Shown: piece by piece, positions 4,145-33,327 of the stretch
Numbering within the stretch: position 1 is the stretch's first letter
Layout: each line of letters begins with the position of its first letter
DNA from: Klenkia marina
GTDB taxonomy: Bacteria > Actinomycetota > Actinomycetes > Mycobacteriales > Geodermatophilaceae
Length of the DNA stretch: 64,000 bases
NCBI RefSeq assembly: GCF_900101025.1
Contig: NZ_FMUH01000001.1
Location: 124,001 to 188,000 of the forward strand
Direction: 5' to 3'
Made by a program: the position numbers and the translations under genes
The notes under the pieces: generated by a model
Seen by the model: only the letters and a program-made list of their open reading frames with translations
The model's database searches: none
What the model was told of the DNA's origin: nothing

Positions 4145-4183
4145 GGGTCGGAATCGTCGTCAGGATGCGGTAGACAGCACGCC

Positions 4184-6559
<2,376 letters not shown>

Positions 6560-7548: not shown

Positions 7549-7902
7549 TCAGGCCTCCGGGGCGTCAGCCGGGTCGGCTGCGAGGTAGCCCGACCAGCCG
7601 TCGTACTCGCCGCCGTGGCGGTCGACGACGTCGAAGATCTGCTGGCTGGAGGCGTCGGCGGTATCGACGTCGGCGGCGTCGATGCGGGAGAACTCGATCC
7701 GCACCCGTCGCAGACCCCGGCCCACACCGTCCACGCGGAAACCGAGGGCGACCAGGTCGGTCTGCACGGCGGCGGCGTGCCGGCGCGGCACCACCACGAG
7801 GTGGTCCAGCGGACGCGGCACGTGCGGCGCGTCCCCCAGCTCCACCCGCTGCGCCACCAGCGCCACGTTCGCCTCGTGCTGGGCCGCCATGTCCGAGGTC
7901 AT
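7549..7902 (-). CDS. RraB-like ribonuclease E inhibitor domain protein
   Basis: A 117-residue acidic protein. The C-terminal segment IFDVVDRHGGEYDGWSGYL and the central HLVVVPRRHAAAVQTDLVALGFRVD fit the RraB/regulator of RNase E activity B fold, which binds RNase E and modulates mRNA decay in proteobacteria. Its actinobacterial role is not established. The start ATG 7902 was chosen because sequence upstream is terminator and tmRNA. Confidence 0.65.
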   Translation of the reverse strand: MTSDMAAQHEANVALVAQRVELGDAPHVPRPLDHLVVVPRRHAAAVQTDLVALGFRVDGVGRGLRRVRIEFSRIDAADVDTADASSQQIFDVVDRHGGEYDGWSGYLAADPADAPEA

Positions 7903-7930
7903 GCCGCCGACGCTAGCTCCCCGCGACGCA

Positions 7931-7968
7931 GCAGAGCCCGGGCGGTCCGAGGACCGTCCGGGCTCTGC
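7931..7968 (-). terminator. Strong stem-loop downstream of tmRNA
   Basis: Two 18-nt arms (7931-7948 and 7951-7968) pair with one mismatch around a 2-nt GA turn. It lies 22 bp beyond the tmRNA 3' end and before the rraB-like gene, both on the minus strand, so it most likely ends the tmRNA transcript. Confidence 0.8.
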
Positions 7969-7990
7969 TCTGCAAGGGGTGGTGCTGTGA

Positions 7991-8366
7991 TGGTGGAGGT
8001 GGCGGGAATCGAACCCGCGTCCTTCGACGCGCGACCAGGGCTTCTCCGAGCGCAGTCCGCTGTGTCCCTGCTCGACCTTCCCGATCCCACGAACAGGTCG
8101 GGACGACAGGCCCAGTCGCTGTGGGGTGTCCCGTGCCGGTCCGCGACCGACCAGCACGGTGAGTCATCTAGCTGATGCCAGGATCCGGGCCGATGACAGA
8201 ACCCGGGCTGACAGACTCACTCTGGCTGCTTACGCAGCGAGAGCGAAGTCGCGCTGACTGGAGTCGGCGCTTGTGTGTTTTCCAACGCGTGGTTAACGAG
8301 CTCATCGTTGGCTTCCTCGGCTCGCTTCCCCTGGTGACCCGACCGAAGTCGAGACCAATCACCCCC
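7991..8366 (-). ncRNA. ssrA: Transfer-messenger RNA (tmRNA)
   Basis: A 376-nt tmRNA. The 5' end GGGGGTGATTGGTCTCGACT pairs its first seven bases with CACCTCC just before the encoded A-CCA 3' end, forming the acceptor stem. The T arm reads GCGGGTTCGATTCCCGCC. The tag reading frame (8268-8230) encodes ADSSQRDFALAA then TAA. It is close to the mycobacterial tag, with the ALAA degradation end. Together with SmpB (encoded at 15.8-16.3 kb) it rescues stalled ribosomes. Only 28 bp separate it from the corA stop codon. Confidence 0.95.
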
Positions 8367-8394
8367 TGTGCAGTTGTACCGGCAGATCCTACGC

Positions 8395-9552
8395 CTAGAT
8401 CCAGTCGCGCCGCTTGAAGATGACGTAGAGCGCCAGGCTGATGCCGAACATCAGCGCCAGCGCGAAGGGGTAGCCGAACACCCAGGTCAGCTCGGGCATG
8501 TGGTCGAAGTTCATGCCGTAGACGCCGCCGACCAGCGAGGGGGCGAACAGGATGGCTGCCCAGGCCGAGATCTTCTTGACCTCCTCGCCCTGGGCGATCG
8601 AGGTCTCCGACAGCGTCTTCATCTCCTCGTTCTGCCGCTGGGCGACCAGGGTCGCGTTCACGGTGAGGATGTCGCGCAGCTGCGACCGGAAGGCGTCGAC
8701 CCGCTCGTTGATGCCGGTGACGTGGTCGGCGACGTCGCGCAGGTTGGCCCGCAGGTCCTCGTCGACGCCGTACTTCTCGAACCCGGCGGTGATCGCCGCG
8801 CAGATGCCGGCCAGCGGCGCGGTGGCCCGCTGGACGTCGAGCACCTCCTGGGACAGCTCGTAGATGCGCCGGGACACCTTCGGGTCACCGCGGAACACCT
8901 CGAGCTCGATCTCGTCGATGTCCTTGTCCAGCCCGGCCAGCACCGGCAGGTACCCGTCGACGACGGCGTCGAGGATGGCGTAGAGCACCGACTCGCTGCC
9001 CTTGGCCAGCAGCTCCGGGTCGCTCTCCAGCCGCCGGCGCACGCGCGCCAGGTCCGGGGACTCCGCGTGCCGGATCGTGATGACGAAGTCGCGCCCGAGG
9101 AACAGGTGCAGCTCGCCGAACTCGACCTCCTCGCGGGCGTCGAGGTACCGGGCGGCCTTGAGGACGACGAAGAGCGTGTCCCCGTAGCGCTCGAACTTCG
9201 GCCGCTGATGGGCGTGGATGGCGTCCTCGACGGCCAGCTCGGGCAGGTCGAACAGCTCGGCCAGCTCACCGACCTGGTGCGGCTCGGGCCGGTAGAGGCC
9301 CAGCCAGGCGAGGCGGTTCTCGGTGAACCCGTCGGTGAGGCGCAGCCAGGTGCGGCTCTCCTCCGGCGACCCGGGGGTGTCCACGCGGCGCCCGTTGCTG
9401 TAGACGGCGTTGTCGACCATCTTCGGCGCGCGTCCGGGCAGCTCCAGGCGGGTGACCGGCTCGGGCGCCAGACCGGTCGGCCGGGGCCGGCGGGTGAGCG
9501 TGCTCAGGGCGGTGAGCGGGGCAGTGAGCTGGGGACGGCGGCGATCGGCCAC
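8395..9552 (-). CDS. corA: CorA family magnesium/divalent cation transporter
   Basis: A 385-residue CorA-type channel. A long soluble alpha/beta and helical N-terminal domain is followed by two C-terminal transmembrane helices, with the YGMNF (GMN) selectivity motif at the end of the first. The conserved periplasmic loop and the basic C-terminus FKRRDWI are present. The start GTG 9552 is preceded by AGGGAG 6 nt upstream. It probably mediates Mg2+ (or Co2+/Ni2+) uptake. The gene lies upstream of ssrA on the same strand. Confidence 0.92.
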   Translation of the reverse strand: MADRRRPQLTAPLTALSTLTRRPRPTGLAPEPVTRLELPGRAPKMVDNAVYSNGRRVDTPGSPEESRTWLRLTDGFTENRLAWLGLYRPEPHQVGELAELFDLPELAVEDAIHAHQRPKFERYGDTLFVVLKAARYLDAREEVEFGELHLFLGRDFVITIRHAESPDLARVRRRLESDPELLAKGSESVLYAILDAVVDGYLPVLAGLDKDIDEIELEVFRGDPKVSRRIYELSQEVLDVQRATAPLAGICAAITAGFEKYGVDEDLRANLRDVADHVTGINERVDAFRSQLRDILTVNATLVAQRQNEEMKTLSETSIAQGEEVKKISAWAAILFAPSLVGGVYGMNFDHMPELTWVFGYPFALALMFGISLALYVIFKRRDWI

Positions 9553-19285: not shown

Positions 19286-20656
19286 GTGACGAGCAAGCAC
19301 GAACGGGCATCGCGGCCGCAGGGGCACTGGCTGGCGCTGGGCGTCTACGGGTGCGTCGCGGCCGCCGCGCTGCTCACCTGGGGCGTCGACCCCGTGCTCG
19401 GCGTGGTGGCCGGGGCGCTCAACGTGGTCTTCGCCGTGTTCTTCCTGCGGCACCTGGGCTTCGCCGTCGCCGCGGCCCGGTGGGCCGAGCGCGACCTGTT
19501 GGCCGCCGACGTCGACCTGGCCGGCTGGACGCCGTCGGTGGCGGTCCTGGTGGCCTGCAAGAACGAGGCACTGGTCGTCGAGGGCATGCTCACCGCCCTG
19601 CTGGCCCTGGAGTACCCGGCGGACCGGATCACCTTCGTGGTGGTCGACGACGCCTCCGACGACGAGACCGGCGTCCTGCTCGACGCCCGGGCCGCCCTGG
19701 ACCCCCGGCTGCGGGTGCTGCACCGCCCGCCGGGCGCGGGGGGCGGCAAGTCCGGCGCCCTCAACCTCGGCCTGGCCTCCGTGGATGCCGAGATCGCGTT
19801 GGTCTTCGACGCCGACCACGAGCCCGAGCCCAATGCGTTGCTGCGCCTGGTGCGGCACTTCCGCGACCCCCGGGTCGGCGCGGTGATGGGCCGCTGCGTG
19901 ATCCGCAACGGCAAGGAGTCGTCGATGGCCACGACGGTGTTCGTGGACTTCCTCTCGGGCTACCTGGTCAACGAGTACGGGCGGCAGGCCCTGTTCGAGC
20001 TGCCCGCCTACGGCGGGGCCAACTGCGCCGTCCGGGTCAGCACCCTGCGCGAGCTCGGCGGGTGGAACCCCGCCAGCGTCACCGAGGACACCGACCTGAC
20101 CCTGCGCATCCTGCTCAGCGGCCAGCGGGTGCGCTACGACCTCACCGCGATCGACTACGAGGAGGGCGTGGTCTCCGCCCGCCGCTTCTGGACCCAGCGC
20201 TACCGCTGGGCCCGCGGCCACCAGAAGTGCTTCCGGGACTACACGTGGCCCGTGCTGCGCTCGCCCCACCTGCGGGTGGTCGAGAAGGTCGAGTCGGTGC
20301 TGTTCCTGCTGACCTACCACGTGCCGGTGCTGTGCGGGCTGGGTCTGCTGCTCACCGCGCTCCGCGCCGCCGGGCTCGGCGGCGCGCCGGCCGTCGCTCT
20401 GCTCCCCCTGGCCATGCTGCTGTTCGTCGGGCCGATGGCCGAGCTGGCCGTGGGCCTGCTCGTCGGTCGGGTCGAGCGCCGGGCGGCCTGGCGCCTGATC
20501 GGGTTCCTGCCCGCCTTCGCGCTGTCGGTGTGGATCACGACCCGGGCCTACGTGGACGGCATGGTCGGCCGGCCCTACGCGTGGGTCAAGACCTCCCGGA
20601 CCGGCGGCACGTCGACCGTGGCCCCGGCTCCCCTGACCACGGCGGTGTCGCGGTGA
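19286..20656 (+). CDS. Membrane glycosyltransferase family 2 (processive beta-glycan synthase-like)
   Basis: A 456-residue GT2 enzyme. Two N-terminal helices precede the GT-A domain with VVVDDASDD, the metal-binding FDADHE, the acceptor-site TEDTD, and QRYRWARG (the QxxRW motif of processive synthases such as hyaluronan, cellulose or poly-GlcNAc synthase). Three or four C-terminal helices follow. It would polymerise and export a beta-linked polysaccharide. GTG 19286 is preceded by GTGGAG. The next gene (exosortase-like) overlaps by 4 bp, so glycan synthesis and protein sorting are encoded together. Confidence 0.85.
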
Positions 20657-21786
20657 GCGCCGCGGCGCCGGCCCTGCCCCGCCCCGGGCACCTCGGCACC
20701 GACCGGCGGTTGCTCACCATCGCCGGCGAGCTCGCAGTGGCCATCACCATCTGCGTCGTCGGCTACTTCTGGGCGGCCGAGTGGTTCCAGGTGCACGAGG
20801 CCGCCTGGACGGTGCAGGTGCTGCAACTGCTCGGCGTGGACACCTCCGGCGTCGTCCCCGGGTCGATCCTGATCTTCCGCGGGCCCGGCGAGGTGCTCGA
20901 GGGGATCGTCACGCTGTCCTGCTCGTCGGTGCTCAGCGTCGGCGGCCTGGTCGCGCTCACCGCGGTGGTGCTGCGCGGTCGCGGGCTGCACGCCCTGTTC
21001 GGGCTCGTGGTCGCCACGGCGGCCGTGGTGGTCGCCAACATGGTGCGGCTGGTCCTCTCGGCGCTGGCCGGGTGGGCGTGGGGTGGACCCGCCATGACCC
21101 TGTTCCACGACTGGGCCGGCACCCTGTGGGCCCTGGCCAGCACGCTGGGCGGGTTCCTGCTGATGGTCTGCCTCACGCTGCCGGCCGCCGAACGCGCCGA
21201 GCAGGACGTCGCCGGCCGGCACACCGCGCGACGTCCGCAGAGCTGGGCCCGCCCCGGGCTGGGCTACCGCACCGCCGACGTGGTAGCCCCACCCGCGGGC
21301 AGCCGCCCGCGCCTGGCCTCGTTCGTGCACCGCCGGGTGCTCCCCCGGCGGCTGTCCGCCCACCTGGCCGCCCGCCGGGAGTCCGGCCGCATCGACTACC
21401 GGATCGGGCACCAGCCGGTCGACCGCCGCATCGCCACCGTGCAGCGGCTGGCCGCCGACGGCCTCGGCGCCCACTCGGCGTCGCTGGTGGCCGTGGCGAC
21501 CTACGACGACGACGCGCGCGTGCTCGAGGCGCTGGCGCTCGCCGTCGCCGCCCGCCAGTGGGAACCGGTCGTCGACGCCCGCGTGAGCGCCCTGCGGCTG
21601 TGGGCGCGCGGCTGGATGCAGGCCAGCGGGCACCGCGACGACGCGCCCCGACCCCGGCGGCCGCACGGCGCCCACGCCGCTCCCGACGGCGCGGTCACCG
21701 CCCCCCGCACCGCCCCGCCGCCGGCCCGCGGAGCACTGCCGACGCCCCTCGACTTCGCCCGACCCCACCCCGAGGACCTCCCGTGA
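20653..21786 (+). CDS. Exosortase/archaeosortase family protein with C-terminal extension
   Basis: A 377-residue protein. Residues 1-185 hold about six hydrophobic segments with the exosortase triad: Cys in [10 protein letters not shown] (about 98), Arg in [10 protein letters not shown] (about 138) and His in [10 protein letters not shown] (about 158). Known exosortases/archaeosortases cut C-terminal sorting tails (PEP-CTERM, PGF-CTERM) from surface proteins. Here the Cys motif is CSS rather than the common CSG. The last 190 residues form a soluble Pro/Arg-rich region ([19 protein letters not shown] and onward) not found in standard exosortases. It sits between a glycan synthase and, 3 kb downstream, two anchor-tailed surface proteins. 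Confidence 0.75.
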
Positions 21787-22922
21787 CGCTCGCCCCGCCG
21801 CCCGTGCCCCCCACCGACCGCGCTGCCCCGCGCCCGGCCCCGCCGAGCGAGACCACGGTCCGGATCCGGGTGCCGGTCCCGGTGCCGCCGCCGGCGCGCA
21901 CCGGTGGGCGGCACACCCCACCCGCCGTCCTGGTCACCGGCGCCGGCGGGCCGGCCGGCGTCGCCGTCGTGCGGCACCTGGTGGCCTCGGGCCACCGCGT
22001 GGTGGCCGTCGACGCCGACCCGCACGCCGCCGGCGGCGCGCTCGCCGATGCCTCGGCCACGGTGCCGCGCGGGGACCACCCGGGCTACGCCTCCGCCCTG
22101 CTGGCCGTGGCCGTGCGGCACGGGTGCGACGCGCTCGTGCCGACCGTCGCCGAGGAGCTGCCCGCGCTGCGCACCGCCGCGCCGTGGCTGTCGGCCCACG
22201 GGCTGGCCAGCTGGCTGCCCGACGAGGAGGCCGTGCAGCTGTGCTGCGACAAGGACCTGTTCGCCCGCCGCATGGTCGCCGCGGGCGTGGCGCACCCGGC
22301 GACGTCGGCCCACCGCGACGGCGTCGCCGACGTGCCCGGCCCCTGGGTGGTCAAGCCCCGCACGGGCCGCGGCAGCCGCGGCGTCCAGCTGCTCGACGAC
22401 CCGACCGCCGTGCGCGCCGCCCTGGCGGCCGACCCCGACCTGGTCGTGCAGACCCGGCTGACCGGCCGCGAGTTCACCGCCGACGCCCTGGTCGACCGGG
22501 ACGGCGAGCTGCTCACCGTGGTGCCGCGCTGGCGCACCGAGACCCGGGCCGGCATCTCCGTGAAGGGCACGACGTTCGCCTCGGTGCCGGTCACCGAGCT
22601 GGTGCAGGCCACGCTGGCCGCGGTCGGGCTGACCGGGCCGGCCAACGTGCAGGGCTTCGTGGCCGAGGACGGGACGGCGACGGTCATGGAGGTCAACCCG
22701 CGGTTCTCCGGCGGGCTCCCCCTGACCCTCGCCGCCGGCGCCGACGTCGTCGGGACCTACCTCACCGGGGTGCGCACCCCCGGCACCGCCCTGCCCCGGC
22801 TCTGGTTCACCCCCGGGGTGCGCATGAGCCGCTACTTCGCCGAGACGTTCACCGGCCCCGACGGGGTCGCGCTGCCGGCGCTGCCCGCCTCGGCCCCGGC
22901 GCGCTCCGGCGTGCGGTCGTGA
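21783..22922 (+). CDS. ATP-grasp ligase with N-terminal Rossmann-like domain
   Basis: A 379-residue CarB-like ATP-grasp protein. After a Pro-rich N-terminus of about 45 residues comes VLVTGAGGPAGVAVVRHL (Rossmann-like), then the ATP-grasp domain with PWVVKPRTGRGSRGVQLL and the metal-binding MEVNPRFSGGLPL. It should couple a carboxylate to an amine or similar nucleophile using ATP. Overlapping starts and stops on both sides (GTGA) place it in the exosortase/epimerase operon, so it probably makes a surface-glycan precursor or modification (inference). Confidence 0.75.
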   Translation: MTLAPPPVPPTDRAAPRPAPPSETTVRIRVPVPVPPPARTGGRHTPPAVLVTGAGGPAGVAVVRHLVASGHRVVAVDADPHAAGGALADASATVPRGDHPGYASALLAVAVRHGCDALVPTVAEELPALRTAAPWLSAHGLASWLPDEEAVQLCCDKDLFARRMVAAGVAHPATSAHRDGVADVPGPWVVKPRTGRGSRGVQLLDDPTAVRAALAADPDLVVQTRLTGREFTADALVDRDGELLTVVPRWRTETRAGISVKGTTFASVPVTELVQATLAAVGLTGPANVQGFVAEDGTATVMEVNPRFSGGLPLTLAAGADVVGTYLTGVRTPGTALPRLWFTPGVRMSRYFAETFTGPDGVALPALPASAPARSGVRS

Positions 22923-24073
22923 CCGGGATCCGCGCCCGGCACGTGCTGGTGCCGTTCGGCACCCGCCCCGAGGTGGTCAAGCTGGCGCCGGTCGTGCGGG
23001 CCCTGCGCGCGGCCGGGCACACGGTGACCGTCGTGGACACCGGCCAGCACGCCGACCCGGCCATGGGGTCGGGCGTGCAGGCCAGCCTCGGGCTGCACCC
23101 CACCCACCGGTTCGAGCTGCCGGCCGGGCAGCCGGCCCGCACCGGTGCGGTGCACGCCGACGCCGCGGCCGCGGTGGCCCGGTTCGCCCCCGACCTCGTG
23201 CTGGCCCTCGGCGACACCGCCACCGTGCCCGCCTACGCCCTGGCCGCCCGCGCCGCCGGGGTGCCCTTCGCGCACGTGGAGGCCGGGCTGCGCAGCTTCA
23301 ACGGGCGCAGCGTCGAGGAGGTCAACCGGCGGGTGGCGGCCGCGGTCGCCCAGCTGCACTTCGCCCCGACCACCCGCGCGGCGCAGTTCCTGGCCGCCGA
23401 GGGCGTGCCGGCCGAGCGGGTGTTCGTCGTCGGCAACCCGGTCGTGGACACCCTCGTCGAGCGCGGCACGACCCCCCGTCCGGTCGCGGACCGGGCCGGG
23501 GTGCTGGTGACCGCGCACCGGCCGACCAACGTCGACGACCCCACCCGGCTGGCCCGGCTGGTGGACGTCGTGCGCGGGCTGGCCGACGAGGTCGGCCCGG
23601 TCACCTTCCCGGTGCACCCCCGCACCGCGGCCCGGCTGGCGAGCACGGGGCTGGACCGGCGACTGGACCACCCCGGGGTCAGGTGCACCGGTCCGCTGGA
23701 CTACGACGACCTGCTCGCCGTCCTGGCGGGCTCCGTCCTGGCCGTCACCGACTCCGGCGGGATCCAGGAGGAGGCCGCCTACCTCGGCGTCCCGGTGGTC
23801 GTGCTGCGCTCGTCGACCCCGCGCTGGGAGGGGGTCGAGGCCGGGACGACGACGCTCGCCGGGCTGGCCACCGACCAGGCGGCCGGCGACGTGCTGGCCG
23901 CCGCCCGGGCGCACGCCGCCGCCGAGGGCCAGGCGCGCGCCGCCGCACTGCCCTGCCCCTACGGCGACGGGACGGCGGGCGCCCAGGTCGCCGCGGTGCT
24001 GGCCGACCCCCGCACCGACCAGCTGCTGGCGCTGACCGAGCCCGACTTCACCGGCGGGCGGCTCCCGTGGTGA
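22919..24073 (+). CDS. UDP-N-acetylglucosamine 2-epimerase family protein
   Basis: A 384-residue WecB-type enzyme of GT-B fold. GTRPEVVKLAPVVRAL, HVEAGLRSFN and TDSGGIQEEA match the family. Deviations: LGDTAT replaces the usual HGDT motif and AHRPTNVDD replaces HRxEN, so the substrate or activity may differ from UDP-GlcNAc epimerisation. It would supply a ManNAc-type sugar or a derivative to the linked glycan synthase. Confidence 0.78.
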   Translation: MTGIRARHVLVPFGTRPEVVKLAPVVRALRAAGHTVTVVDTGQHADPAMGSGVQASLGLHPTHRFELPAGQPARTGAVHADAAAAVARFAPDLVLALGDTATVPAYALAARAAGVPFAHVEAGLRSFNGRSVEEVNRRVAAAVAQLHFAPTTRAAQFLAAEGVPAERVFVVGNPVVDTLVERGTTPRPVADRAGVLVTAHRPTNVDDPTRLARLVDVVRGLADEVGPVTFPVHPRTAARLASTGLDRRLDHPGVRCTGPLDYDDLLAVLAGSVLAVTDSGGIQEEAAYLGVPVVVLRSSTPRWEGVEAGTTTLAGLATDQAAGDVLAAARAHAAAEGQARAAALPCPYGDGTAGAQVAAVLADPRTDQLLALTEPDFTGGRLPW

Positions 24074-24801
24074 GCCACCTCCACCGCGCGCCGTGGGCGG
24101 TGGTGGTCGACCTCGACGACACGCTGTACCCGCAGTCGGCCTACCTGGCGGGGGCGGCGGCGGCGGTGGGCGCCGCCGCCGCCGCCGCGGGCCTGGACGG
24201 CCCCGCCGTGCACCGGGCGCTGGACGCCGAGCTGGCAGCCGGCTCCGACACGGGGGGCACCATCGACCGCGCCCTGCTGGCCGCCGGCGTCGTGGCCGAG
24301 GACGTCGGGGAGCACGTGCCGGCGCTGGTGGCCGCCTTCGTGGCCCACCGGCCCGCGTCGCTGCCGCTGCACCCCGGGGTGGTCGAGGCGCTGCACGCCC
24401 TGCGCGCCGTCGCACCGCTGGGCTGCCTCACCGACGGCGACCCCCGCACCCAGGACGCCAAGCTGGCCGCGACGGGGGTGCTCCCCCTCCTCCACGAGGT
24501 GGTCGTCACCGACGCCCTGGGCAGCCGGGCGGTGCGCAAGCCGCACCCCGCCGGACTGCTCGAGCTCGCGCGCCGGCTGGGGGTGCCCGCCGACCGCGTG
24601 CTGGTGATCGGCGACCGGCCCGACAAGGACGTCGCCGTGGCAGCTGCGGTCGGGGCGCCGGCCATCCGCGTGCGGCAGGGCGAGCACGCGCACCGGGTGG
24701 ACGGTCCGACGCCCTGGCGGACGGTCGACTCGTTCCCCGAGGCGGCCGCAGCGGCGTTGGGGGCGCTGCACGCGGCGGGTGGTCTCACCCCTTCGGCGTA
24801 G
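24070..24801 (+). CDS. HAD-superfamily hydrolase
   Basis: A 243-residue HAD phosphatase: motif I DLDDTLYPQ (nucleophile Asp plus DxD), motif II LTDGDPRTQ, motif III Lys in RKPHPAG and motif IV GDRPDKDV. The cap domain is helical and Ala-rich. Its GTG overlaps the epimerase stop by 4 bp. It probably dephosphorylates a sugar phosphate or pathway intermediate. Confidence 0.82.
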   Translation: MSHLHRAPWAVVVDLDDTLYPQSAYLAGAAAAVGAAAAAAGLDGPAVHRALDAELAAGSDTGGTIDRALLAAGVVAEDVGEHVPALVAAFVAHRPASLPLHPGVVEALHALRAVAPLGCLTDGDPRTQDAKLAATGVLPLLHEVVVTDALGSRAVRKPHPAGLLELARRLGVPADRVLVIGDRPDKDVAVAAAVGAPAIRVRQGEHAHRVDGPTPWRTVDSFPEAAAAALGALHAAGGLTPSA

Positions 24802-24884
24802 ACCGCGTCGATCAGCTGTACGTACGCCCAGAGCTGCCCCAGGGTAAGCCTGCGATCACGCACCGTCATTCGAGGAGACCCGCC

Positions 24885-25448
24885 TTGTCCAGCACCACCC
24901 GCACGTCGAGCCCGACCCGGAAGGGCGCCCGGCTCGTCGTGGTCGTCCTCCTCTCGCTGCTCGCGATGGCCATCGCCCCGGGCAGCGCCTCGGCCGCCAG
25001 CGGCACGGTCCGCCCCATCGCCGACTGCTACCGCGACAACGGCGACGGCACGTACACCGGCGTGCTGGGCTACGTGAGCGACGAGTCGGTGACCCGCGAC
25101 ATCCCGGTCGGCCCGGACAACCGGACCGAGCCCGAGGCGTGGCAGTCGCAGGTGCCCACCCGGTTCGAGCCGGGCACCCACCACGGTGTGGCCTCGGTCG
25201 TGCTGACCCAGCGCCAGCTGGAGGGGCTGGACCCGGCCTCGTGGAGCCTGGACGGCACCACCCTGTCCGCCGGCACCGTGGGCCAGGTGTCCGCGTGCGA
25301 CGGCTCGGAGATGCCGCAGCTGGCCAACGGGGCCGTCGTGGTCGGCTCGCTCGCCGCCGCCGCGCTGGTCGGCCTCGTGCTGCTGCGCCGCAACGACCGC
25401 CGCAACGACCGCCGCTCCGGCGCACGCGCCGCGCAGTCCGGCGTGTGA
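24885..25448 (+). CDS. Secreted surface protein with P-x-LANGA/TM/Arg C-terminal tail (candidate exosortase substrate)
   Basis: A 187-residue protein. The start is TTG 24885, supported by GAGGAG 7-9 nt upstream, as no ATG or GTG fits. The signal peptide ends near GSASAAS. Residues 45-145 form a domain shared with the next gene (ADCY, DGTYT, LGY, GPDN, PTRFEPGTHHGV, WSLDG). The C-terminus reads MPQLANGA, a hydrophobic helix of about 17 residues, then LLRRNDRRNDRR. This motif-helix-Arg layout is the architecture of sortase and exosortase sorting tails. It lies 84 bp beyond the HAD gene. Confidence 0.72.
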   Translation: MSSTTRTSSPTRKGARLVVVVLLSLLAMAIAPGSASAASGTVRPIADCYRDNGDGTYTGVLGYVSDESVTRDIPVGPDNRTEPEAWQSQVPTRFEPGTHHGVASVVLTQRQLEGLDPASWSLDGTTLSAGTVGQVSACDGSEMPQLANGAVVVGSLAAAALVGLVLLRRNDRRNDRRSGARAAQSGV

Positions 25449-25599
25449 GGCCCTCTCCCCCACCACCACCTGCCCTGCGGGGCCGGTGACCTCCCCCCTC
25501 CGAGCGATGCCGGGGCGGTCGGGCTACGCCCGGCCGACCACGGGCCGAACAGCAGACAGTGCGGCGGAACCACCGCCGTCGGTACGAGAAGGACCACCC

Positions 25600-26649
25600 A
25601 TGCCGCACCGCACCGCAGGACCCCGGACCCCCGGTCGTCGACGCACCGCGTACTCCCTCGCCGCCGTCCTCGGTGTCGTCGGCCTGGCACTGGCACCCGG
25701 GGTGGCCTGGGCCGCGCCCGGTGCGGACGCGACCGACCTCGCGGCCGGTGCGACCGTGTCGGCGAGCTCCTCGTACGAGAACAACTCCGACGGGTGGTCG
25801 GCGGCCCACGCGGTCGACGGCAGCACCGACTCGACGCCCGGCTCCCGGGGGTGGAGCAGCGTCGACCGGTACGACACCGCCCACACCGAGTGGTTCCAGG
25901 TGGACCTCGGCGAGCAGTCGTCCGTCGACGAGATCGTCCTGTGGCCCCGCAACGACGGCGCCGAGGCCGGCTACGGCTTCCCGACCACGGCGACCGTGGC
26001 GACGTCGACGGACGGCAGCACCTGGACCACCGTGTGGGAGCTCGACGACCCCACGTTGTCCGCCGCTCCGCGGTCGAGCGCGTTCTCCGACCTCACCGCC
26101 CGCTACGTGCGCATCACCGGTCAGACGCGCTACGTGGACAGCGACGGCAGCGGCTACCGCATGCAGTTCGCCGAGGTGCAGGTGTACGGCGCGACGGCGA
26201 CGCAGCCGCCGCCCAGCACGACCCGGGGCGGTCTGACGCCGCTGGCCGACTGCTACACGCAGAACGAGGACGGCACGTACACGGTGGTGTTCGGCTACGC
26301 CAACGACTCGGACACCCCGGTGGACCTCGCCCCCGGGCCGGACAACACCTTCACCCCGTCGACCTACAACTCGGTCCTGCCGACGACCTTCCAGCCGGGC
26401 ACGCAGCACGGGGTGTTCCAGCTGACCCTCACGCAGGCCGACCTGGACGCGAACCCGTCGTGGCAGCTGGACGGCAAGCGGCTGGACAGCTCCGCGGACC
26501 TGCCGCCGTCCTGCGCGAGCTCGCAGCTGCCGGCGTTGGCCAACGGTGCCGTGCTGGCCGGCGCCGTCGTGCTGGCCGGCGCGGTCGGTGCGGTCGCCGT
26601 CCGCCGTCAGCGGGGCACCCGGGACGCCGAGGCGGCCGGCCGTGGCTGA
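25600..26649 (+). CDS. Secreted discoidin (F5/8 type C) surface protein with the same anchor-like tail
   Basis: A 349-residue protein. A signal peptide (VVGLALAPGVAWAAPG) is followed by an F5/8 type C carbohydrate-binding domain at about residues 45-205 (SSYENNSDGWSAAHAVDGS, WFQVDLGEQSSVDEIVLWPR, ARYVRITGQ). A Pro/Thr linker then leads to a C-terminal domain homologous to the preceding protein (ADCYTQNEDGTYTVVFGY, GPDNTF, TTFQPGTQHGVF, WQLDG). It ends LPALANGA, a hydrophobic helix, then VRRQRGTRD. It probably binds glycan outside the cell and is anchored or released by the nearby exosortase-like enzyme (inference). Confidence 0.8.
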   Translation: MPHRTAGPRTPGRRRTAYSLAAVLGVVGLALAPGVAWAAPGADATDLAAGATVSASSSYENNSDGWSAAHAVDGSTDSTPGSRGWSSVDRYDTAHTEWFQVDLGEQSSVDEIVLWPRNDGAEAGYGFPTTATVATSTDGSTWTTVWELDDPTLSAAPRSSAFSDLTARYVRITGQTRYVDSDGSGYRMQFAEVQVYGATATQPPPSTTRGGLTPLADCYTQNEDGTYTVVFGYANDSDTPVDLAPGPDNTFTPSTYNSVLPTTFQPGTQHGVFQLTLTQADLDANPSWQLDGKRLDSSADLPPSCASSQLPALANGAVLAGAVVLAGAVGAVAVRRQRGTRDAEAAGRG

Positions 26650-27346
26650 CGTCCTCGCGATCGGCGCGCACCCCGACGACGTCGAGCTGGGCTGCGGGGG
26701 TGCGCTCCTGGCCCACGTGGCCGCCGGGGACACCGTCACCGTCCTGGTCCTCACCGGCGGTGAGGCCGGACCCGGGACCGCGAACCGCCACCAGGAGCAG
26801 CGGGCCGCGGCGGAGACGCTCGGCGTCAGCCTCCGCTGGGGCGGGCTGCTGGACTGCAGCCTCACCCCGGACGCGGCGACGGTGCGGTTGGTCGAGGGGG
26901 TGCTCGAGGAGACCGGGGCGGACCTGGTGTACGTCCACGCCCCGGACGACAGCCACCAGGACCACCGGGCCGCGGCGGCCGCCACCCGGTCGGCCGCCCG
27001 CCGACTGCCCCGGGTGCTGCACTACCAGAGCCCGTCGACGCTGACGTTCAACCCCACGGTGTTCGTGGACGTCACCGGGTTCCTCAGCGGGAAGCTGGTG
27101 GCCCTCAAGGCGCACGCCTCCCAGGTCGAGCTCTCCCCGATGGTGGAGCCCGACGCCGTCGTCGCCGCTGCCCGCTACTGGGGGTCGCAGGCCCGGATCG
27201 GCTACGCCGAGGCCTTCGTGCCGACCAGGATGGTGCTGGACCTGGCGCCCACCCCCCGCGCTGCTCCCGCCGCCCGGCGGGAGCAGGCCCAGGTCGTGGC
27301 CGAGCGGCGAGCCGTGCCGCGCGACCTGGCCGCCCTGCTCGACTGA
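26642..27346 (+). CDS. PIG-L / LmbE family zinc deacetylase
   Basis: A 234-residue PIG-L family protein. The zinc motif GAHPDDVELG opens the protein and the third ligand is in PDDSHQDHRA (about 100). Relatives (MshB, BshB, PIG-L) remove N-acetyl groups from GlcNAc-containing molecules. GTG 26642 overlaps the upstream stop by 8 bp, so it belongs to the surface locus and could N-deacetylate the linked glycan or its precursor. The last 30 residues are Ala/Arg-rich. Confidence 0.85.
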   Translation: MADVLAIGAHPDDVELGCGGALLAHVAAGDTVTVLVLTGGEAGPGTANRHQEQRAAAETLGVSLRWGGLLDCSLTPDAATVRLVEGVLEETGADLVYVHAPDDSHQDHRAAAAATRSAARRLPRVLHYQSPSTLTFNPTVFVDVTGFLSGKLVALKAHASQVELSPMVEPDAVVAAARYWGSQARIGYAEAFVPTRMVLDLAPTPRAAPAARREQAQVVAERRAVPRDLAALLD

Positions 27347-27370: not shown

Positions 27371-30300
27371 TCAGCCGGCCAGGTGCCCCCACTCGGCAGC
27401 CAGGTCTGACCAGCGGCCACGGTCGACCACCCGTCCGGCGTCGAGGACCACCACCTGGTCGGCCAGCGCGAGCGCGGCGCGCTTGGACGACGCCCCGACG
27501 ACGGTGGACCCCCGCTCGCGCAGCGCGGCCCACAGCTCGAGCTCGGTGCGGGCGTCCAGCGCCGAGCTGACGTCGTCGGCGAGCACCAGCTCCGCGCCGG
27601 TGGCCAGCGCACGGGCCAGGGCCAGGCGCTGCACCTGCCCGCCGGACAGCCGCACGCCGCGGTGCCCGACGAGGGCGCCCACTCCCCCGGCGTCGGCGAC
27701 GTCGGGCTGCATGCGGGCGGTGTGCAGGGCGGCGTCCACCCCGCGCCGGTGCGAGAGCGCCACGTTCTCGGCGATGCTGCCCGAGAGCACCCGGGGCACC
27801 TGGGCCACGTGGGCCACCTGGCCCGGGCGCAGGAACAGCTGCGGGTCGGTGACGTCGACCCCGTTCCAGCGGATGGCGCCCTCGTGGTCGACCAGGCCGG
27901 CCAGGGCGGCCAGCAGGCTGGACTTGCCGGCGCCCACCCGCCCGACCAGCAGGGTCAGCGAGCCGGCCGGGACCCGCAGGTCGACGTCGGCCACCCCCAC
28001 CGTGCCGTCGTCGTGCACCGCGGTGACCCCCTGCAGCTCGAGGGTGCGCAGCGGCACGCGGTCGGGGTCGGCCGGGGCCGGCGCGCTGCCGGTGACCAGG
28101 TCGACGCCGTCGGGCAACGACACCAGGTCCGAGCGGCCGGCCAGCGTGCTGGCCTCGCGCAGCCACACCCCGGCGATGGGCCGCTCGACCACGGCCAGGC
28201 CGGCGGTGATGCCGTACCAGCCGAAGCCGGCGACGGCGGTGCTCACGGTGAGGGCGGTGGCGAGGTCCCAGGCACCGGTGAGGAACAGGGCCCACGACGC
28301 CACGATCGCGGTCTGCACCAGCACCACGGGCCCGCCCTCGAGCAGCGTGCGGATGCGGGTCTCGCGGACCGTCGCGGCCACCCGGCGGGCGTCGACGGCC
28401 TCGAGGTGGCGCTGCACGGTGCCGGTGGCGGCGGCCAGCTTCACGGTGCGCACCGCCTCGAGCGCCGAGACCAGCTGCCGGCCGAACACCGCACGCAGGT
28501 CGCCGGCCACCCGGCCCGCCCGACCGGCGGCGGGAGCACCGAGCGCGGCGAGCACCACCGCCCCGACGATCACGCTGCCGGCCACCAGGCCGGCGACCGG
28601 CTGGCCGGTGACCAGCACGGTGGCCACGGTGGCCGCGGCGCCGAAGGAGACGTCGATCCAGCGGTCGGCGAGGTTGAGCAGGCGGTCGGAGTCCAGCGCC
28701 CGGGCGGTGACCTCGCCGGGCGGGGTGCGGGCCAGGCGGTGCTGCTCGGTCTGCCCGCGCAGCACGGCCAGCCGCAGGCGCAGGGTCACCGCCGTCCACC
28801 ACACGGGGAACCAGCGGAACGCGACGGCGACGCACACCGAGGACACGAGCAACCCGGCCGCGAGCAGGGCGGCGGTGAGCACCGGGGTGCGGCCGTCCTC
28901 CAGGCCCTCGACCAGCCGGCCCCACAGGGCGCCGGTGAGGATGCCGTAGGTGCCGGTGACCGACCCCATCCAGAACGCCACGCACGAGGTGATGCCCCAG
29001 GCCGGGTGGGCGACGATCGCCCGCACCACCGACCGGGCCAGGCGCACCCGCGGGGGCCGGGGGGCCGGTCGCACGGGCCGCCGGTCGGCCGGCGCGCCCA
29101 TCCCGCGGTCGGCCCCGGGCCCTATTACGGGCTCGGTCGCGGGCTGGGTCACGCGCTCGGTCACGGCGGGCTCGGGCGCCGGGACGTCGACGGCCCCGTC
29201 GGCCCCCGCCGCCACCAGCAGGTCGCGGAAGGGCCCGAGCGTGGTGGCCAGCTCGGCGCGCGGGCCCTGCTGCACGATGCGCCCGCCGTCGAGCACGGCG
29301 ACCGCGTCGCACCACCGGGTGGTGCCCAGCCGGTGCGCGACGACGACGCCGGTGCGCCCCTGCAGCAGCCGCTGGGCGGCGCGGGTGACCAGCTGTTCTG
29401 TCACCGGGTCCATGCGGGCGGTGGCCTCGTCGAGCACGACCACCTGCACGTCGCGGACCAGCAGCCTGGCGAAGGCGACGAGCTGCTCCTGGCCGGCCGA
29501 CAGCGTGACCCCGCGCGGGCCGAGCTGGGTGTCCAGACCGTCGGGCAGGCCGGCGACCCACTCGGTGAGGCCGAGCTCGGCGACGGCGGCCTCGACCCGG
29601 GCGCGGGGGACGTCGGCGAACAGGGTGAGGTTCTCGGCGAGGGTGGCGGCCAGCAGCTCGGTGCGCTGGGTGACGACCCCGACGCCGGCGCGCAGCGCCT
29701 GCAGGTCGGTGGCGGTGACGTCCTGGCCGCCCACGTGCACGGTGCCCGGCGGCGGCTCGACCGCCCGCGACAGCAGCTTGGCCAGCGTCGACTTGCCCGC
29801 GCCGCTGCGGCCCACGAGCGCGCAGGTGGTGCCGGCCGGCACCGACCAGCTCGGCACGCGCAGGTGGAAGGGCTCGGCGTGGCCGTCGGTGCGGTACGTG
29901 AAGTCGAGGTCGTGCACCTCGACGGCGCCGCCGGTGGCCGGCAGCGGGCGCCCGCCCTGCGGCTCGGGCGCGGCGGCCATGAGCGCCCGGATGCGGGCCA
30001 GGGCGCCGAGGCCCTCGTGCATCTCGGGCAGGTGGTGGTTCACCTCGTCGAGCCGGCCGACGAAGGTGGTGACCAGCAGCCAGAGGGTGACCAGGGTGCC
30101 GACGTCGAGGGTGCCGCCGTCGACCAGCGCCACGGCCCCGACGGCCAGCGCCGCGAGCAGGCCGTGCAGCACGAGCCCGCTGCGCAGGGCGACCCGGGAG
30201 GCCACCCGCGAGGTGCGCCCGTTGCGGCGCAGGATCTCCGCCGCCCGGGCGGCGAACTGGGCGAGGACGTAGGGCTGGCCCAGGGAGGTGCGCACGTCGT

Positions 30301-30919
30301 CCCGGCCGGCGACGGCCTCCTCGAGCTGGGCGGCGCCGTCGGACCAGGCCTCCTCCTCCAGCGTCTTGGACCGGGCCAGCAGCGGCGTGAGCCGGCGCAC
30401 CGCGGCCAGCACCAGGACGGCGACCAGCGGGAACGCGATCCACGCCGGCCACCACACCAGGCCCGCGGCCACCCAGGCCAGCACCGAGCGCAGCACCGCG
30501 CGGCCCATGGCCCAGCCGCTGATGCGCAGCAGGACGGCGAGCTGGCGGGTGTCGTCGTCGACCCGGTCGAGCAGCTCGCCGACGCCCTGCTCCTCCAGCC
30601 GGGTCAGCGGCTGGTGCAGCGCGGCGTCGAGCAGGTCGGCGCGCAGCACGCCCTCGGCCCGGCCGACCGCGGTGGCGAACAGGGTGCGCCCGACGACCTC
30701 GCACAGCGCGGACCCCACGAGGAACACGGCCAACGCGGCCAGCAGCGCTGCGGTGGGGCCCTCGGCGATGCGGCCGGTGACCACGGTGCCGAAGGTCTCG
30801 GCGACGGCGGCCAGCACGGCGAGCAGCACGGCGGCCCGGGCGCCCGGACCGGAGAGCCGACGCCGGCCCAGCGGCGCCCGCGCCGTCCTGCCCTCCACCT
30901 CCGCACCAGCACCGTCCAC
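27371..30919 (-). CDS. Fused ABC exporter, TMD-NBD-TMD-NBD in one chain
   Basis: An 1,182-residue exporter made of two half-transporters. Half 1 has a membrane domain (about 20-310) and an NBD with Walker A GRSGAGKST, signature LSAGQEQ (not LSGGQ) and Walker B VVLDEATARMD. Half 2 has a membrane domain (about 620-890) and an NBD with Walker A GRVGAGKSS, signature LSGGQVQR and Walker B LVLADDVSSALD, where the catalytic Glu is Asp. One composite ATP site therefore looks degenerate, as in heterodimeric exporters, which are normally two proteins. A Pro/Arg-rich linker (about 590-615) joins the halves. GTG 30919 is chosen as start. The cargo is unknown. The gene is convergent with the surface locus. 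Confidence 0.82.
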   Translation of the reverse strand: MDGAGAEVEGRTARAPLGRRRLSGPGARAAVLLAVLAAVAETFGTVVTGRIAEGPTAALLAALAVFLVGSALCEVVGRTLFATAVGRAEGVLRADLLDAALHQPLTRLEEQGVGELLDRVDDDTRQLAVLLRISGWAMGRAVLRSVLAWVAAGLVWWPAWIAFPLVAVLVLAAVRRLTPLLARSKTLEEEAWSDGAAQLEEAVAGRDDVRTSLGQPYVLAQFAARAAEILRRNGRTSRVASRVALRSGLVLHGLLAALAVGAVALVDGGTLDVGTLVTLWLLVTTFVGRLDEVNHHLPEMHEGLGALARIRALMAAAPEPQGGRPLPATGGAVEVHDLDFTYRTDGHAEPFHLRVPSWSVPAGTTCALVGRSGAGKSTLAKLLSRAVEPPPGTVHVGGQDVTATDLQALRAGVGVVTQRTELLAATLAENLTLFADVPRARVEAAVAELGLTEWVAGLPDGLDTQLGPRGVTLSAGQEQLVAFARLLVRDVQVVVLDEATARMDPVTEQLVTRAAQRLLQGRTGVVVAHRLGTTRWCDAVAVLDGGRIVQQGPRAELATTLGPFRDLLVAAGADGAVDVPAPEPAVTERVTQPATEPVIGPGADRGMGAPADRRPVRPAPRPPRVRLARSVVRAIVAHPAWGITSCVAFWMGSVTGTYGILTGALWGRLVEGLEDGRTPVLTAALLAAGLLVSSVCVAVAFRWFPVWWTAVTLRLRLAVLRGQTEQHRLARTPPGEVTARALDSDRLLNLADRWIDVSFGAAATVATVLVTGQPVAGLVAGSVIVGAVVLAALGAPAAGRAGRVAGDLRAVFGRQLVSALEAVRTVKLAAATGTVQRHLEAVDARRVAATVRETRIRTLLEGGPVVLVQTAIVASWALFLTGAWDLATALTVSTAVAGFGWYGITAGLAVVERPIAGVWLREASTLAGRSDLVSLPDGVDLVTGSAPAPADPDRVPLRTLELQGVTAVHDDGTVGVADVDLRVPAGSLTLLVGRVGAGKSSLLAALAGLVDHEGAIRWNGVDVTDPQLFLRPGQVAHVAQVPRVLSGSIAENVALSHRRGVDAALHTARMQPDVADAGGVGALVGHRGVRLSGGQVQRLALARALATGAELVLADDVSSALDARTELELWAALRERGSTVVGASSKRAALALADQVVVLDAGRVVDRGRWSDLAAEWGHLAG

Positions 30920-30975
30920 ACCGGCACCGTACGGACCGGGTACGACGCTGCGCGCCCGGTTTTCGCCGCGGGTGG

Positions 30976-32748
30976 TCAGCCCGCGAGCGCGGCCCGGCGG
31001 CGGCTGCGGGCACCCAGCCAGCGCGGGAGGTCCTCGGCCGGCATCGGCCGGGCGATGACGAACCCCTGGGCGTAGGTGCAGCCCAGCGCGGCGACGGTGG
31101 CCAGCTGCTCGGGGGTCTCGACGCCCTCGGCGACGCTGCGCATGCCGCAGGCCTTGGCCAGGCTGACCACGGTCTCGACCGCGGCCGCGGACTGACTGGC
31201 CTGCTTGTGGCCCGATCCGGCGATGCCCTGCACCAGCGACTTGTCGATCTTGAGGATGCCGGCCGGCATCGACACGATCTGGCCCAGGCAGGAGAAGCCG
31301 CTGCCGAAGTCGTCGATGGAGACCTCGATGCCCGACACCCGCAGCTCGGCGAACTGCTCGGCGGCGCGCTCGGGGTCCTCGGCGACGCTGGTCTCGGTCA
31401 GCTCCAGCACGAGCCGCTCGGGCCGCAGCCCGCTGCTGGCCAGGGCCGCGGTGACGTCGGAGACGAGCGTGCCCGACCCCATGTGGGTGGCGCTGATGTT
31501 GACCGCGGCGGTGAGCGGCAGGCCCATGGCGTCCCACTCGGCGGCGTCGCGGGAGACGGTGGCCAGCACCCAGCGGGTGAGCTCGTCGACCAGTCCGCTG
31601 GCCTCGGCGACCGGCACGAACTCCGCGGGCGGCAGCAGGCCGCGCTCGGGGTGCTGCCAGCGCACCAGTGCCTCGACACCGGTGACCGTGCGGGTGCGCA
31701 GGTGCAGCAACGGCTGGTAGTGGACGACCAGCTGGCCGGCCGCGATGGCGTCGCGCAGCTCGGTGGTGACGTGCAGGCGGCGCTGGGCGGCCGCGCGCAG
31801 CTCACCGGAGAACAGGGTGACGGTGTCGCGACCGGCGGCCTTCGCGGCGTACTTGGCGAGGTCGGCGTCGCGGATGAGGTCCGTGGCCGTGCGGCGCTCA
31901 CCGCCGCTGACCGCCACCCCCACGCTGACGGTCAACGGCACGGTGGCCCCGGCGACGCTGAACGGGTCGGCGAAGACCGCACGGCAGCGCTGGGCCAACT
32001 GCACGGCCTCCTCGGCGTCGACGTCCCGGCCGAGGACGACGAACTCGTCGCCGCCGAGCCGGCCGACGGTGTCGCGCTCGCGGGTGGCGCGGGCCAGCCG
32101 GGCGGCCACCTGGCGCAGCAGCAGGTCGCCGGTGTCGTGACCCAGGGTGTCGTTGACCGCCTTGAACTCGTCGACGTCGAGCACCAGGACGGCGACCGAA
32201 CCGCCGTCGGCGCCGCCCAGCTCGGCCTCGACCAGCTCCTGCAGGTGCACCCGGTTGGGCAGGTCGGTGAGGTGGTCGTAGAGCGCGCGGCGGGCGCTGT
32301 CGCGCACGGCCTCGACGCTGGCGGTGATGTCGGTGTGGGTGACCACGAGCTGACCGGACTCGTCGACCCGGGCGGCCTGCACGTGCACCCAGCGGCCCAC
32401 CGGGGCCGCGCCGAGCGCGACGTCGACCGACACCGGGGCGCCGCCGTGCTCGATGAGCGCGCCCAGGCCCTCGATGAGCTGGCGGACGTCGTCGTCGTCG
32501 CGGGCGGTGAGCACGGCCTCGGCGTAGTCGTCGCCGACCTCCAGCGGGAGCCCGGCGCCCTCGGCGAGCTGGTCGGCCCAGGCGGCGTTCAGCAGCAGCA
32601 CGGTGCCGTCGGTGTCCAGCAGCGCGGTCGGCGCGGGCAGGGCGTCGAGCACCGACCCGGGCAGCGCCGGCGTGGCGGGGTGGCGACGGCGGGACCGGTG
32701 GCCGCCCGGACGCCCGCCGTCCTCGACGGGGACGGCAGGTGTCGGCAC
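30976..32748 (-). CDS. PAS-GGDEF-EAL cyclic-di-GMP signalling protein
   Basis: A 590-residue cytoplasmic protein. The PAS-like region is at about 35-140. The GGDEF domain (about 150-310) has an intact active site, VGRLGGDEFVVL. The EAL domain (about 330-580) has EALVRWQHP, then LELTETS, SIDDFGSGFS and KIDKSLV, so both diguanylate cyclase and phosphodiesterase activities are possible. No transmembrane helix is seen. It is 123 bp downstream of the Tad pilus operon on the same strand, so c-di-GMP control of adhesion or motility is plausible (inference). Confidence 0.92.
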   Translation of the reverse strand: MPTPAVPVEDGGRPGGHRSRRRHPATPALPGSVLDALPAPTALLDTDGTVLLLNAAWADQLAEGAGLPLEVGDDYAEAVLTARDDDDVRQLIEGLGALIEHGGAPVSVDVALGAAPVGRWVHVQAARVDESGQLVVTHTDITASVEAVRDSARRALYDHLTDLPNRVHLQELVEAELGGADGGSVAVLVLDVDEFKAVNDTLGHDTGDLLLRQVAARLARATRERDTVGRLGGDEFVVLGRDVDAEEAVQLAQRCRAVFADPFSVAGATVPLTVSVGVAVSGGERRTATDLIRDADLAKYAAKAAGRDTVTLFSGELRAAAQRRLHVTTELRDAIAAGQLVVHYQPLLHLRTRTVTGVEALVRWQHPERGLLPPAEFVPVAEASGLVDELTRWVLATVSRDAAEWDAMGLPLTAAVNISATHMGSGTLVSDVTAALASSGLRPERLVLELTETSVAEDPERAAEQFAELRVSGIEVSIDDFGSGFSCLGQIVSMPAGILKIDKSLVQGIAGSGHKQASQSAAAVETVVSLAKACGMRSVAEGVETPEQLATVAALGCTYAQGFVIARPMPAEDLPRWLGARSRRRAALAG

Positions 32749-32871
32749 GGGGACAGCCTAGGTTCTGCTCGGGCCCCGGTGACCGCCGACCGCACCGGGT
32801 CCGCGTGACTTCCGCGCGTCCTGCGCGACTGCCCGTCGCAGGAGCCCCACCGACCCCATCCGTCCCCCGGT

Positions 32872-33327
32872 TCAGGGGTCGACGTAGCGGTCGCGCTCGA
32901 CGACGAACTGGCCGGTGGCGGTGTTGGCGTCGACGAAGTCGGGCAGCAGCGGCACCCGCACGGTCACCGTGACGCAGACGCCGAACTCCTCCCCCGGCGC
33001 CAGCGCGGGCCGGTACCCGCCGTTGGTCGCCGTGCAGGTCACCCCCGGGGGCACGAAGGCCACCCGGACGTCGGTGGCGTCCACCGACTGGTCCTGCACC
33101 GCCAGCGCCGCCGCGGCCAGGGCGCGGGTCTCGCCGGTGGCCGGGTCGGGCGCCGACCCCATCGCCCGGCCGGCCTCACGAGCGGCGGCGTCGGCGGCGA
33201 AGACCCCCCGCTGGACGGCGGAGAACCCGGCCACCAGGTAGACCAGCGGCAGGAACACGACCACCGCGATGAACACGAACTCGACGATGGCCGACCCGCG
33301 CTCGCCGTCCTCGCCCTCGCGGCTCAC
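32872..33327 (-). CDS. TadE-like pseudopilin (Tad pilus)
   Basis: A 151-residue protein with the TadE-like opening GERGSAIVEFVFIAVVVFLPLVYLVAGF: a Gly/Glu cleavage-type region followed by one helix, as in minor pseudopilins processed by a prepilin peptidase. The exported part has two cysteines (TCTATNGG, GVCVTV). ATG 33327 overlaps the stop of the previous tadE-like gene (ATGA). It is the last gene of the Tad operon. Confidence 0.78.
   Translation of the reverse strand: MSREGEDGERGSAIVEFVFIAVVVFLPLVYLVAGFSAVQRGVFAADAAAREAGRAMGSAPDPATGETRALAAAALAVQDQSVDATDVRVAFVPPGVTCTATNGGYRPALAPGEEFGVCVTVTVRVPLLPDFVDANTATGQFVVERDRYVDP

Follow-up and report, generated by a model that had tools for sequence, protein, structure and literature searches.

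An operon of the actinobacterium Klenkia marina probably encodes a dedicated exosortase sorting system for surface proteins, a new subtype of such systems with a sorting signal of its own (estimated probability about 0.7). It is located in a stretch of 64,000 nucleotides (contig NZ_FMUH01000001.1, positions 124,001 to 188,000; hereafter, the window) of a 4.22-Mb genome from the Klenkia group of the family Geodermatophilaceae. There, a single run of eight genes on the + strand (19286-27346) encodes, in this order, a GT2 glycosyltransferase, an exosortase-type membrane protein, an ATP-grasp ligase, a UDP-GlcNAc 2-epimerase (WecB), a HAD hydrolase, two putative substrates (A and B) and a PIG-L deacetylase. 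Judging from the comparison of sequences across the family, the pairing of the exosortase with the C-terminal tail of the substrates is very probable; the suggestion that the operon also makes the acceptor of the sorted proteins is put forward tentatively.

The exosortase-type enzyme and the sorting signal

The product of the second gene (20653-21786) is hydrophobic and matches the exosortase/archaeosortase family model TIGR04178 above its cut-off (27.4 vs. 23 bits). An earlier reading made from the DNA letters alone (the sequence-only reading) had ascribed to it the Cys-Arg-His triad of exosortases, and this assignment held in the comparison with relatives: Cys90, Arg132 and His152 (numbering of the window protein) are invariant in 16 aligned family sequences (16 of 36, after removal of near-duplicates and of one sequence with a frame shift) as well as in a nine-row alignment including two distant members. 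Much of the C-terminal cytosolic part is likewise invariant in the 16 sequences. The best named subtype was XrtS (NF033767), at 43.9 bits far under the cut-off of 145; the XrtP model (NF012139) gave no match at E<=1, and TIGR02602 and PF09721 were absent among the matches listed. By the tests run, the window protein is a member of the exosortase/archaeosortase superfamily and of no named subtype. A Foldseek search with the model of the enzyme returned no PDB match at E<=1e-3.

The C-terminal domain of the enzyme is helical in the AlphaFold model (mean pLDDT 77-93 in blocks of residues 251-320) and HEAT-like. In four loci from outside the family (see below), the homologous region resides at the N-terminus of the ATP-grasp ligase (L123, L124, L131) or forms a separate protein (L130; the L130 and L131 placements come from tblastn). 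The HEAT_2 model (PF13646) scored 35.1 bits on this region in L124 (cut-off 27.7) and 23.6 bits in L123; the window region had no HEAT match. Since the domain moves between the exosortase and the ATP-grasp ligase, it suggests that these two enzymes may act together.

The sequence-only reading also described two downstream secreted proteins ending in MPQLANGA or LPALANGA, a hydrophobic helix and Arg residues, and the translations agree with it. Both proteins, encoded 3-4 kb downstream of the exosortase gene, start with a Sec-type signal peptide (recognized without a predictor), and no others of the window's 409 stop-to-stop frames with 80 or more codons carry P-x-x-[AG]-N-G within the last 60 residues. 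They are alike over ~100 residues preceding the tail (39% identity, E 2.6e-31); hence, A and B are paralogues, as opposed to proteins of separate origin that have just the tail in common.

The 42 tails aligned over 40 columns (the two of the window plus 40 that were found in 32 of the 36 family loci fetched) read T-[EQ]-[LM]-P-[AE]-[DE]-G-N-G-T-G, followed by the helix and the Arg cluster. The Pro and the Asn are present in all 42 tails, and each of the three Gly is kept in 38-41 of them. The family signal is [LM]P-x-x-[GA]-N-G. The P-x-LANGA motif put forward initially was therefore too narrow and was dropped as the motif once the relatives showed [LM]PxxGNG; it stands as the local Klenkia form, the L-A-N-G variant belonging to the two Klenkia genomes with the system. 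A genome-wide DNA pattern for P-x-L-A-N-G, the search proposed along with that motif, was uninformative (three matches vs. seven for the reversed control; the third match, at window position 49837, is not a tail) and was replaced by a protein profile. When each genus was left out in turn, the held-out tails scored at least 20.5 bits in 42 of 42 cases and other frames at most 10.4 bits, bar one further true tail. Held-out Klenkia-type tails scored from 20.5 bits (median 22.6), and a diverged tail of ~20 bits in a genome lacking the exosortase would be indistinguishable from background.

Occurrence of the system in the family and beyond

The exosortase was found in 37 of 112 Geodermatophilaceae genomes (36 of the 96 best genomes), representing 7 of 12 genera. 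In these searches, only the top-ranking first-look candidates per genome were scored, namely at most 17 for the exosortase, 66 of ~150 for the tail and 44 for the domain preceding it, among the matches listed. The tail profile reached at least 40 bits in 36 genomes, all of them with the exosortase. A tail in a genome without the enzyme, which the sequence-only reading had named as evidence contrary to its enzyme-substrate pair encoded with glycan genes, was looked for in all 112 genomes and seen in 0 of the 75 lacking the exosortase (best score among the matches listed, 21.7 bits), so that both the pairing and its link to the glycan genes are supported. The single exception, G038, which has the exosortase but no tail, is a genome of 84% completeness, its operon lying on a 9.4-kb contig that ends inside it. 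The profile of the domain preceding the tail matches the same 36 genomes and detected no such tailed protein in the exosortase-less ones either. An orthologue of the ATP-grasp ligase (at least 53% identity) accompanies the exosortase in 37 of 37 genomes and is found in 0 of the 75 others; a paralogue of it (~40% identity) is common in genus g2, including genomes without the operon.

Presence is mixed within five genera (g1, 2/9; g2, 3/23; g3, 3/16, two of them with the tail; g4, 20/26; g9, 5/23), and in each of them exosortase and tail coincide, apart from G038. Of the 56 strong tails, 42 went into the tail model and match it by construction; the weight lies instead on the absence of strong matches from 75 genomes, on the 14 tails outside the model and on the held-out test. 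All of these 14 tails are from exosortase genomes, and ten of them, in nine genomes, are encoded over 35 kb away from the operon or on a different contig (hypergeometric probability of their confinement to exosortase genomes 2.3e-5, ancestry ignored). Tails of G002 and G108, on contigs resembling broken-off operon ends, were excluded from this count. In G056, the operon has no tailed gene, and the sole substrate is unlinked. Such unlinked substrates weigh more in the argument, since genes of an operon travel together.

All six enzymes are encoded in 33 of the 36 fetched family loci; the remaining three (L057, L067, L071) run into contig ends. Relatives identified by name are Klenkia soli and Blastococcus litoris, both Geodermatophilaceae. 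The GT2 gene adjoins the exosortase gene in 36 of 36 family loci and also in L123, L124, L130 and L131, and the PIG-L gene follows the substrates in most loci and precedes the GT2 gene in five (L037, L040, L043, L057, L071). Compared with the window proteins, WecB is the most conserved of the enzymes (75-86% identity) and the exosortase the least (53-73%). Among the six enzymes, it is the exosortase whose divergence the tail tracks best (r 0.83 vs. 0.72-0.79; 33 family loci). Its partial correlation with the tail, controlling for the remaining five enzymes, is 0.33 (jackknife 0.28-0.35), as compared with -0.22 to 0.24 for the others, the next being the GT2 enzyme (0.24). These correlations are modest, and the permutation does not model ancestry; still, the strongest correlation with the exosortase is as expected if this enzyme reads the tail.

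Several observations weigh against a dedicated exosortase system. The catalytic core is poorly modelled by AlphaFold (mean pLDDT 55 for three sequences), which leaves the triad a predicted one. The absences counted above depend on the top-ranking first-look candidates only. Most of the co-occurrence concerns linked genes that are inherited jointly, so it shows association and not catalysis. The partial correlation of PIG-L with the tail also becomes 0.33 once the exosortase is dropped from the covariates. The family tail was never seen without the same ~100-residue domain (56 of 56), so spread of the tail alone lacks support. The operon enzymes could make a polysaccharide other than an acceptor. 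Finally, the first tail residues are spaced as in LPXTG (L-P-x-x-G), with one tail reading LPATG, and 3 of the 40 tails scanned singly against NCBIfam pass the LPXTG_anchor model (TIGR01167, cut-off 15.9) at 16.4, 17.1 and 17.6 bits, one of them over the motif; neither window tail is among the three (13.0 bits for the tail of substrate B; that of A was not among the matches listed).

The last point bears on a rival explanation, which holds that a classical sortase processes these LPXTG-like tails and that the exosortase-like protein has a different role, in the export of glycans. The general layout of the tail is indeed that of sortase substrates, weak LPXTG_anchor matches occur on 9 of the 42 tails, and the source genome itself has five sortase matches. 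This explanation is nevertheless improbable. Classical sortases occur in 112 of 112 family genomes, whereas the tail is limited to 36 and always stands alongside the exosortase. At the Thr position of LPXTG, Thr is found in 1 of the 42 tails (not one from the window) and Asp or Glu in 31, and the Asn four residues after the Pro is invariant. The operon contains an exosortase and not a sortase: a sortase was detected in the fetched stretches of 2 of 41 loci and none in the window, as judged by one tblastn query, which distant sortases could escape. The family-wide sortase search places one ~16 kb from the exosortase in G025. No other NCBIfam model was passed by any of the 40 tails (the two omitted are near-duplicates of scanned ones), CoaP_CTERM (NF053845) included (best E 0.036 on tails; none over its cut-off of 35), and the Pfam PEP-CTERM model matched only 1 of 42 (E 0.28). 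Taken together, the tails fit no named motif model. The combination of short motif, helix and C-terminal basic cluster was found only in family genomes with the matching enzyme, which agrees with a CTERM-type sorting signal.

Outside the family, the exosortase profile revealed carriers in two of 394 genomes of the class (G144, G151) and two of 396 genomes of the phylum (G714, G677). PIG-L, GT2 and ATP-grasp proteins of these four are 52-59% identical to those of the window, and the exosortases 31-34%; TIGR04178 scored 36.9-46.8 bits on the exosortases of L123, L130 and L131. WecB (51-54%) and HAD (43-51%) were found in three of the four, the contig of G677 ending inside WecB. Substrates were assigned there by position, domain or layout, with no shared motif. 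In G144 and G151, the domain is that of the family substrates, and the tails are PVSVVGS, PVSLVGS and PVPVSGN (both G151 proteins are unlinked). In G677 (L131, 4159-4926), a choice-of-anchor P protein (130.2 bits with NF040603, cut-off 27) ending in VPVGTIGV, helix and Arg stands beside PIG-L, and in G714 a secreted protein (756-residue frame) ending in APLAGSIGA, helix and Arg has the same neighbour. P-x-LANGA consequently fails as the motif of the operon in general, the distant carriers showing PVS[VL]VGS, PVPVSGN, VPVGTIGV and APLAGSIGA; the same enzymes with differing tails indicate a conserved enzyme set and a lineage-specific tail. In the class-wide search with the family tail, only the source genome matched at E<=1e-4 (394 genomes; 19 candidates scored per genome, as listed), which suggests that the tail in this exact form is a trait of the family. 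A weak candidate carrier, G797 (31 bits), lacked the gene set and was not counted. In G144 and G151 (L123 and L124), which belong to different families, the operon is situated between genes reading as rho and prfA. The choice-of-anchor neighbour in G677 links this operon with the XrtP/CoaP world.

Alternatively, the tail might be a mere stop-transfer anchor and the operon a polysaccharide cluster with membrane-anchored carbohydrate-binding proteins. The discoidin domain of substrate B would fit glycan binding. A plain anchor, however, leaves unexplained the invariant Pro and Asn and the Gly conserved in at least 90% of the tails at four sites, along with the ten unlinked tailed proteins in exosortase genomes only and the fact that G144, G677 and G714 also encode tailed proteins next to these enzymes; this explanation appears quite unlikely.

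The domain shared by the substrates gave 56 matches against 56 strong tails, in equal numbers per genome in 36 genomes (coordinates of domain and tail were compared for some pairs only). In substrate A, it is modelled as beta-rich (mean pLDDT ~86 over residues 41-140). It had no Pfam match over any cut-off and no PDB match in Foldseek at E<=1e-3 (best 8tib_A, 1.8e-2); PDB sequence searches with profiles A7 (the domain profile) and A4 gave chance-level matches only. The discoidin domain precedes the shared domain in substrate B, and 13 other substrates look short and without discoidin, as read and not domain-scanned.

A candidate acceptor pathway

Under the proposed mechanism, substrates A and B would cross the membrane via Sec and be held there by the C-terminal helix, the Arg cluster being on the inner side. 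For exosortases in general, action through a Cys residue is assumed; here, the enzyme would cut at [LM]P-x-x-[GA]-N-G using Cys90 with Arg132 and His152, forming a thioester, and the new C terminus of the substrate would be passed to an amine acceptor. The acceptor would most likely be an amino-sugar glycan or glycolipid from the same operon. WecB makes UDP-ManNAc, which it would supply to the GT2 enzyme for sugar assembly at the membrane. PIG-L enzymes strip N-acetyl groups from amino sugars, and this one would thereby expose the amine. Linking carboxylates to amines is the reaction of ATP-grasp enzymes, and the ligase may attach an amino acid or another carboxylate to the amine thus exposed; the HAD enzyme is a putative phosphatase of the pathway.

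It is also quite possible that the exosortase cleaves the tail and that the acceptor is unrelated to the glycan genes (e.g., an ethanolamine lipid or water), a separate surface polysaccharide binding the released proteins. Work on archaeosortase and rhombosortase can be read as pointing to ethanolamine compounds (PMC7157517, PMC7468200), and the first exosortase paper proposed an association with exopolysaccharide (PMC1569441). On the other side, the enzymes, including the deacetylase and the amide-forming ligase, occur together in five families (HAD was unseen in one, at a contig end), and every exosortase genome of the family, with none of the 75 others, has the ATP-grasp orthologue.

Comparable chemistry known elsewhere lends support to an operon-made acceptor, namely the linking-sugar proposal for type IX secretion and the dependence of archaeosortase on amine lipids. 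In the type IX Wbp/Vim system, deacetylation and amino-acid transfer are proposed to yield an amino-sugar compound that receives the protein C terminus, and the authors speculated that exosortase loci may make a linking sugar likewise (PMC7468200). That system has no exosortase, and the corresponding steps would be served here by PIG-L and ATP-grasp enzymes, an analogy and not homology. In Haloferax, processing by archaeosortase ArtA, a Cys enzyme of the same superfamily, depends on the amine-lipid genes for PssA and PssD (PMC7157517), whereas the candidate acceptor genes here encode amino-sugar enzymes and not homologues of phosphatidylserine synthase or decarboxylase.

The system shares with PEP-CTERM/EpsH the signal peptide, the short motif, the helix and the Arg cluster, as well as an exosortase among polysaccharide genes, but lacks the PEP motif, belongs to a host without an outer membrane and has one to three substrates per genome vs. 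1 to 65 (median 8) for PEP-CTERM (PMC1569441). With XrtS and XrtP-CoaP, it has in common the exosortase fold with C/R/H and a GT2 enzyme (associated with XrtP according to the name of model NF053846); XrtS is the best named match, and the distant carrier G677 has a CoaP protein. It differs from both in the scores given above and in the HEAT-like domain and the ATP-grasp and PIG-L genes. The source genome has a second exosortase cluster outside the window (L132, G000:C7:497000-511000, 4110-8442), with an XrtP-like exosortase (62.5 bits with NF012139, cut-off 200), a GT2 enzyme near the XrtP-associated family (466.7 bits against a cut-off of 520), a WecB-type epimerase and a secreted protein that ends in VPAVPISG, helix and Arg.

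A bolder and rather doubtful suggestion is that the operon is a self-contained protein-to-sugar anchoring system, i.e., a bacterial functional counterpart of GPI anchoring, with amide coupling to a deacetylated, ligase-modified amino-sugar acceptor. In that case, the HEAT-like domain would link the exosortase to the ATP-grasp step, and the tail and exosortase would have diversified in each lineage, the acceptor enzymes being more constant.

Operon features, neighbouring genes and significance

The features of the operon are collected in Table 1. At its seven junctions, four overlaps of 4 bases and one of 8 bases occur, given the chosen starts. The GT2 protein scored 110.4 bits with the PgaC/IcaA-like model and 98.7 bits with the XrtP-associated glycosyltransferase model NF053846, both far under the cut-offs; the PIG-L protein scored 106.7 bits with the BshB1 model, below its cut-off of 182.5.

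Table 1. Features of the exosortase operon, in window coordinates (cut-offs in brackets).
Feature	Position	Strand	Evidence and remarks
GT2-family membrane glycosyltransferase, operon gene 1	19286..20656	+	PF00535 82.5 bits (23.3); start chosen
Exosortase-type membrane protein with C-terminal cytosolic domain	20653..21786	+	TIGR04178 27.4 bits; GTG start; 4-base overlap with GT2
Cys90 codon, predicted catalytic triad (SCSS)	20920..20922	+	family alignment of 16
Arg132 codon, predicted catalytic triad	21046..21048	+	family alignment of 16
His152 codon, predicted catalytic triad (FHDW)	21106..21108	+	family alignment of 16
HEAT-like helical domain fused to exosortase	21382..21627	+	structure model and homologous regions of relatives
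ATP-grasp carboxylate-amine ligase, PylC-like N-terminal domain	21783..22922	+	PF02655 49 bits (23.2), PF15632 63.3 (29.1), PF21360 35.1 (27)
Non-hydrolysing UDP-GlcNAc 2-epimerase (WecB)	22919..24073	+	TIGR00236 248.3 bits (210.15)
HAD-family hydrolase, probable phosphatase	24070..24801	+	PF00702 71.4 bits (26.4)
Substrate A: signal peptide, ~100-residue domain, sorting tail	24885..25448	+	domain profile E 1.0e-28; TTG start chosen
Substrate A sorting tail: MPQLANGA, hydrophobic helix, Arg cluster	25311..25448	+	tail profile 51.4 bits (tail itself in model)
Substrate B: signal peptide, discoidin (F5/8 type C) domain, ~100-residue domain, sorting tail	25600..26649	+	PF00754 69.6 bits (28.2)
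Substrate B sorting tail: LPALANGA, hydrophobic helix, Arg	26527..26649	+	tail profile 44.2 bits (tail itself in model)
PIG-L/LmbE-type N-deacetylase	26642..27346	+	PF02585 81.7 bits (28.2); 8-base overlap with substrate B

Convergent genes follow downstream on the - strand (27371-33327), likewise in K. soli (L036); by sequence reading, they include an ABC transporter frame (27371-31537), a GGDEF/EAL-type gene (30976-32748) and a TadE-like gene (32872-33327). Elsewhere in the window, ARAGORN made two overlapping tmRNA calls on the - strand (7458-8366), of which the one with the tag ADSSQRDFALAA looks real.

In the open-licence literature, no paper was found on an exosortase in Geodermatophil*, and no actinobacterial exosortase operon was described in the titles and abstract starts among the matches listed. 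In 2020, the molecule presumed to be joined to substrates by exosortases was still described as unidentified (PMC7468200). The operon brings together in 7-8 genes the enzyme, one to three substrates and an apparently whole acceptor pathway, which genomes of the family either have or lack in its entirety, and its sorting signal allows annotation of surface proteins of Geodermatophilaceae. Overall, it appears to represent a variant of bacterial surface-protein sorting, unnamed by the family models searched, in some soil actinobacteria.

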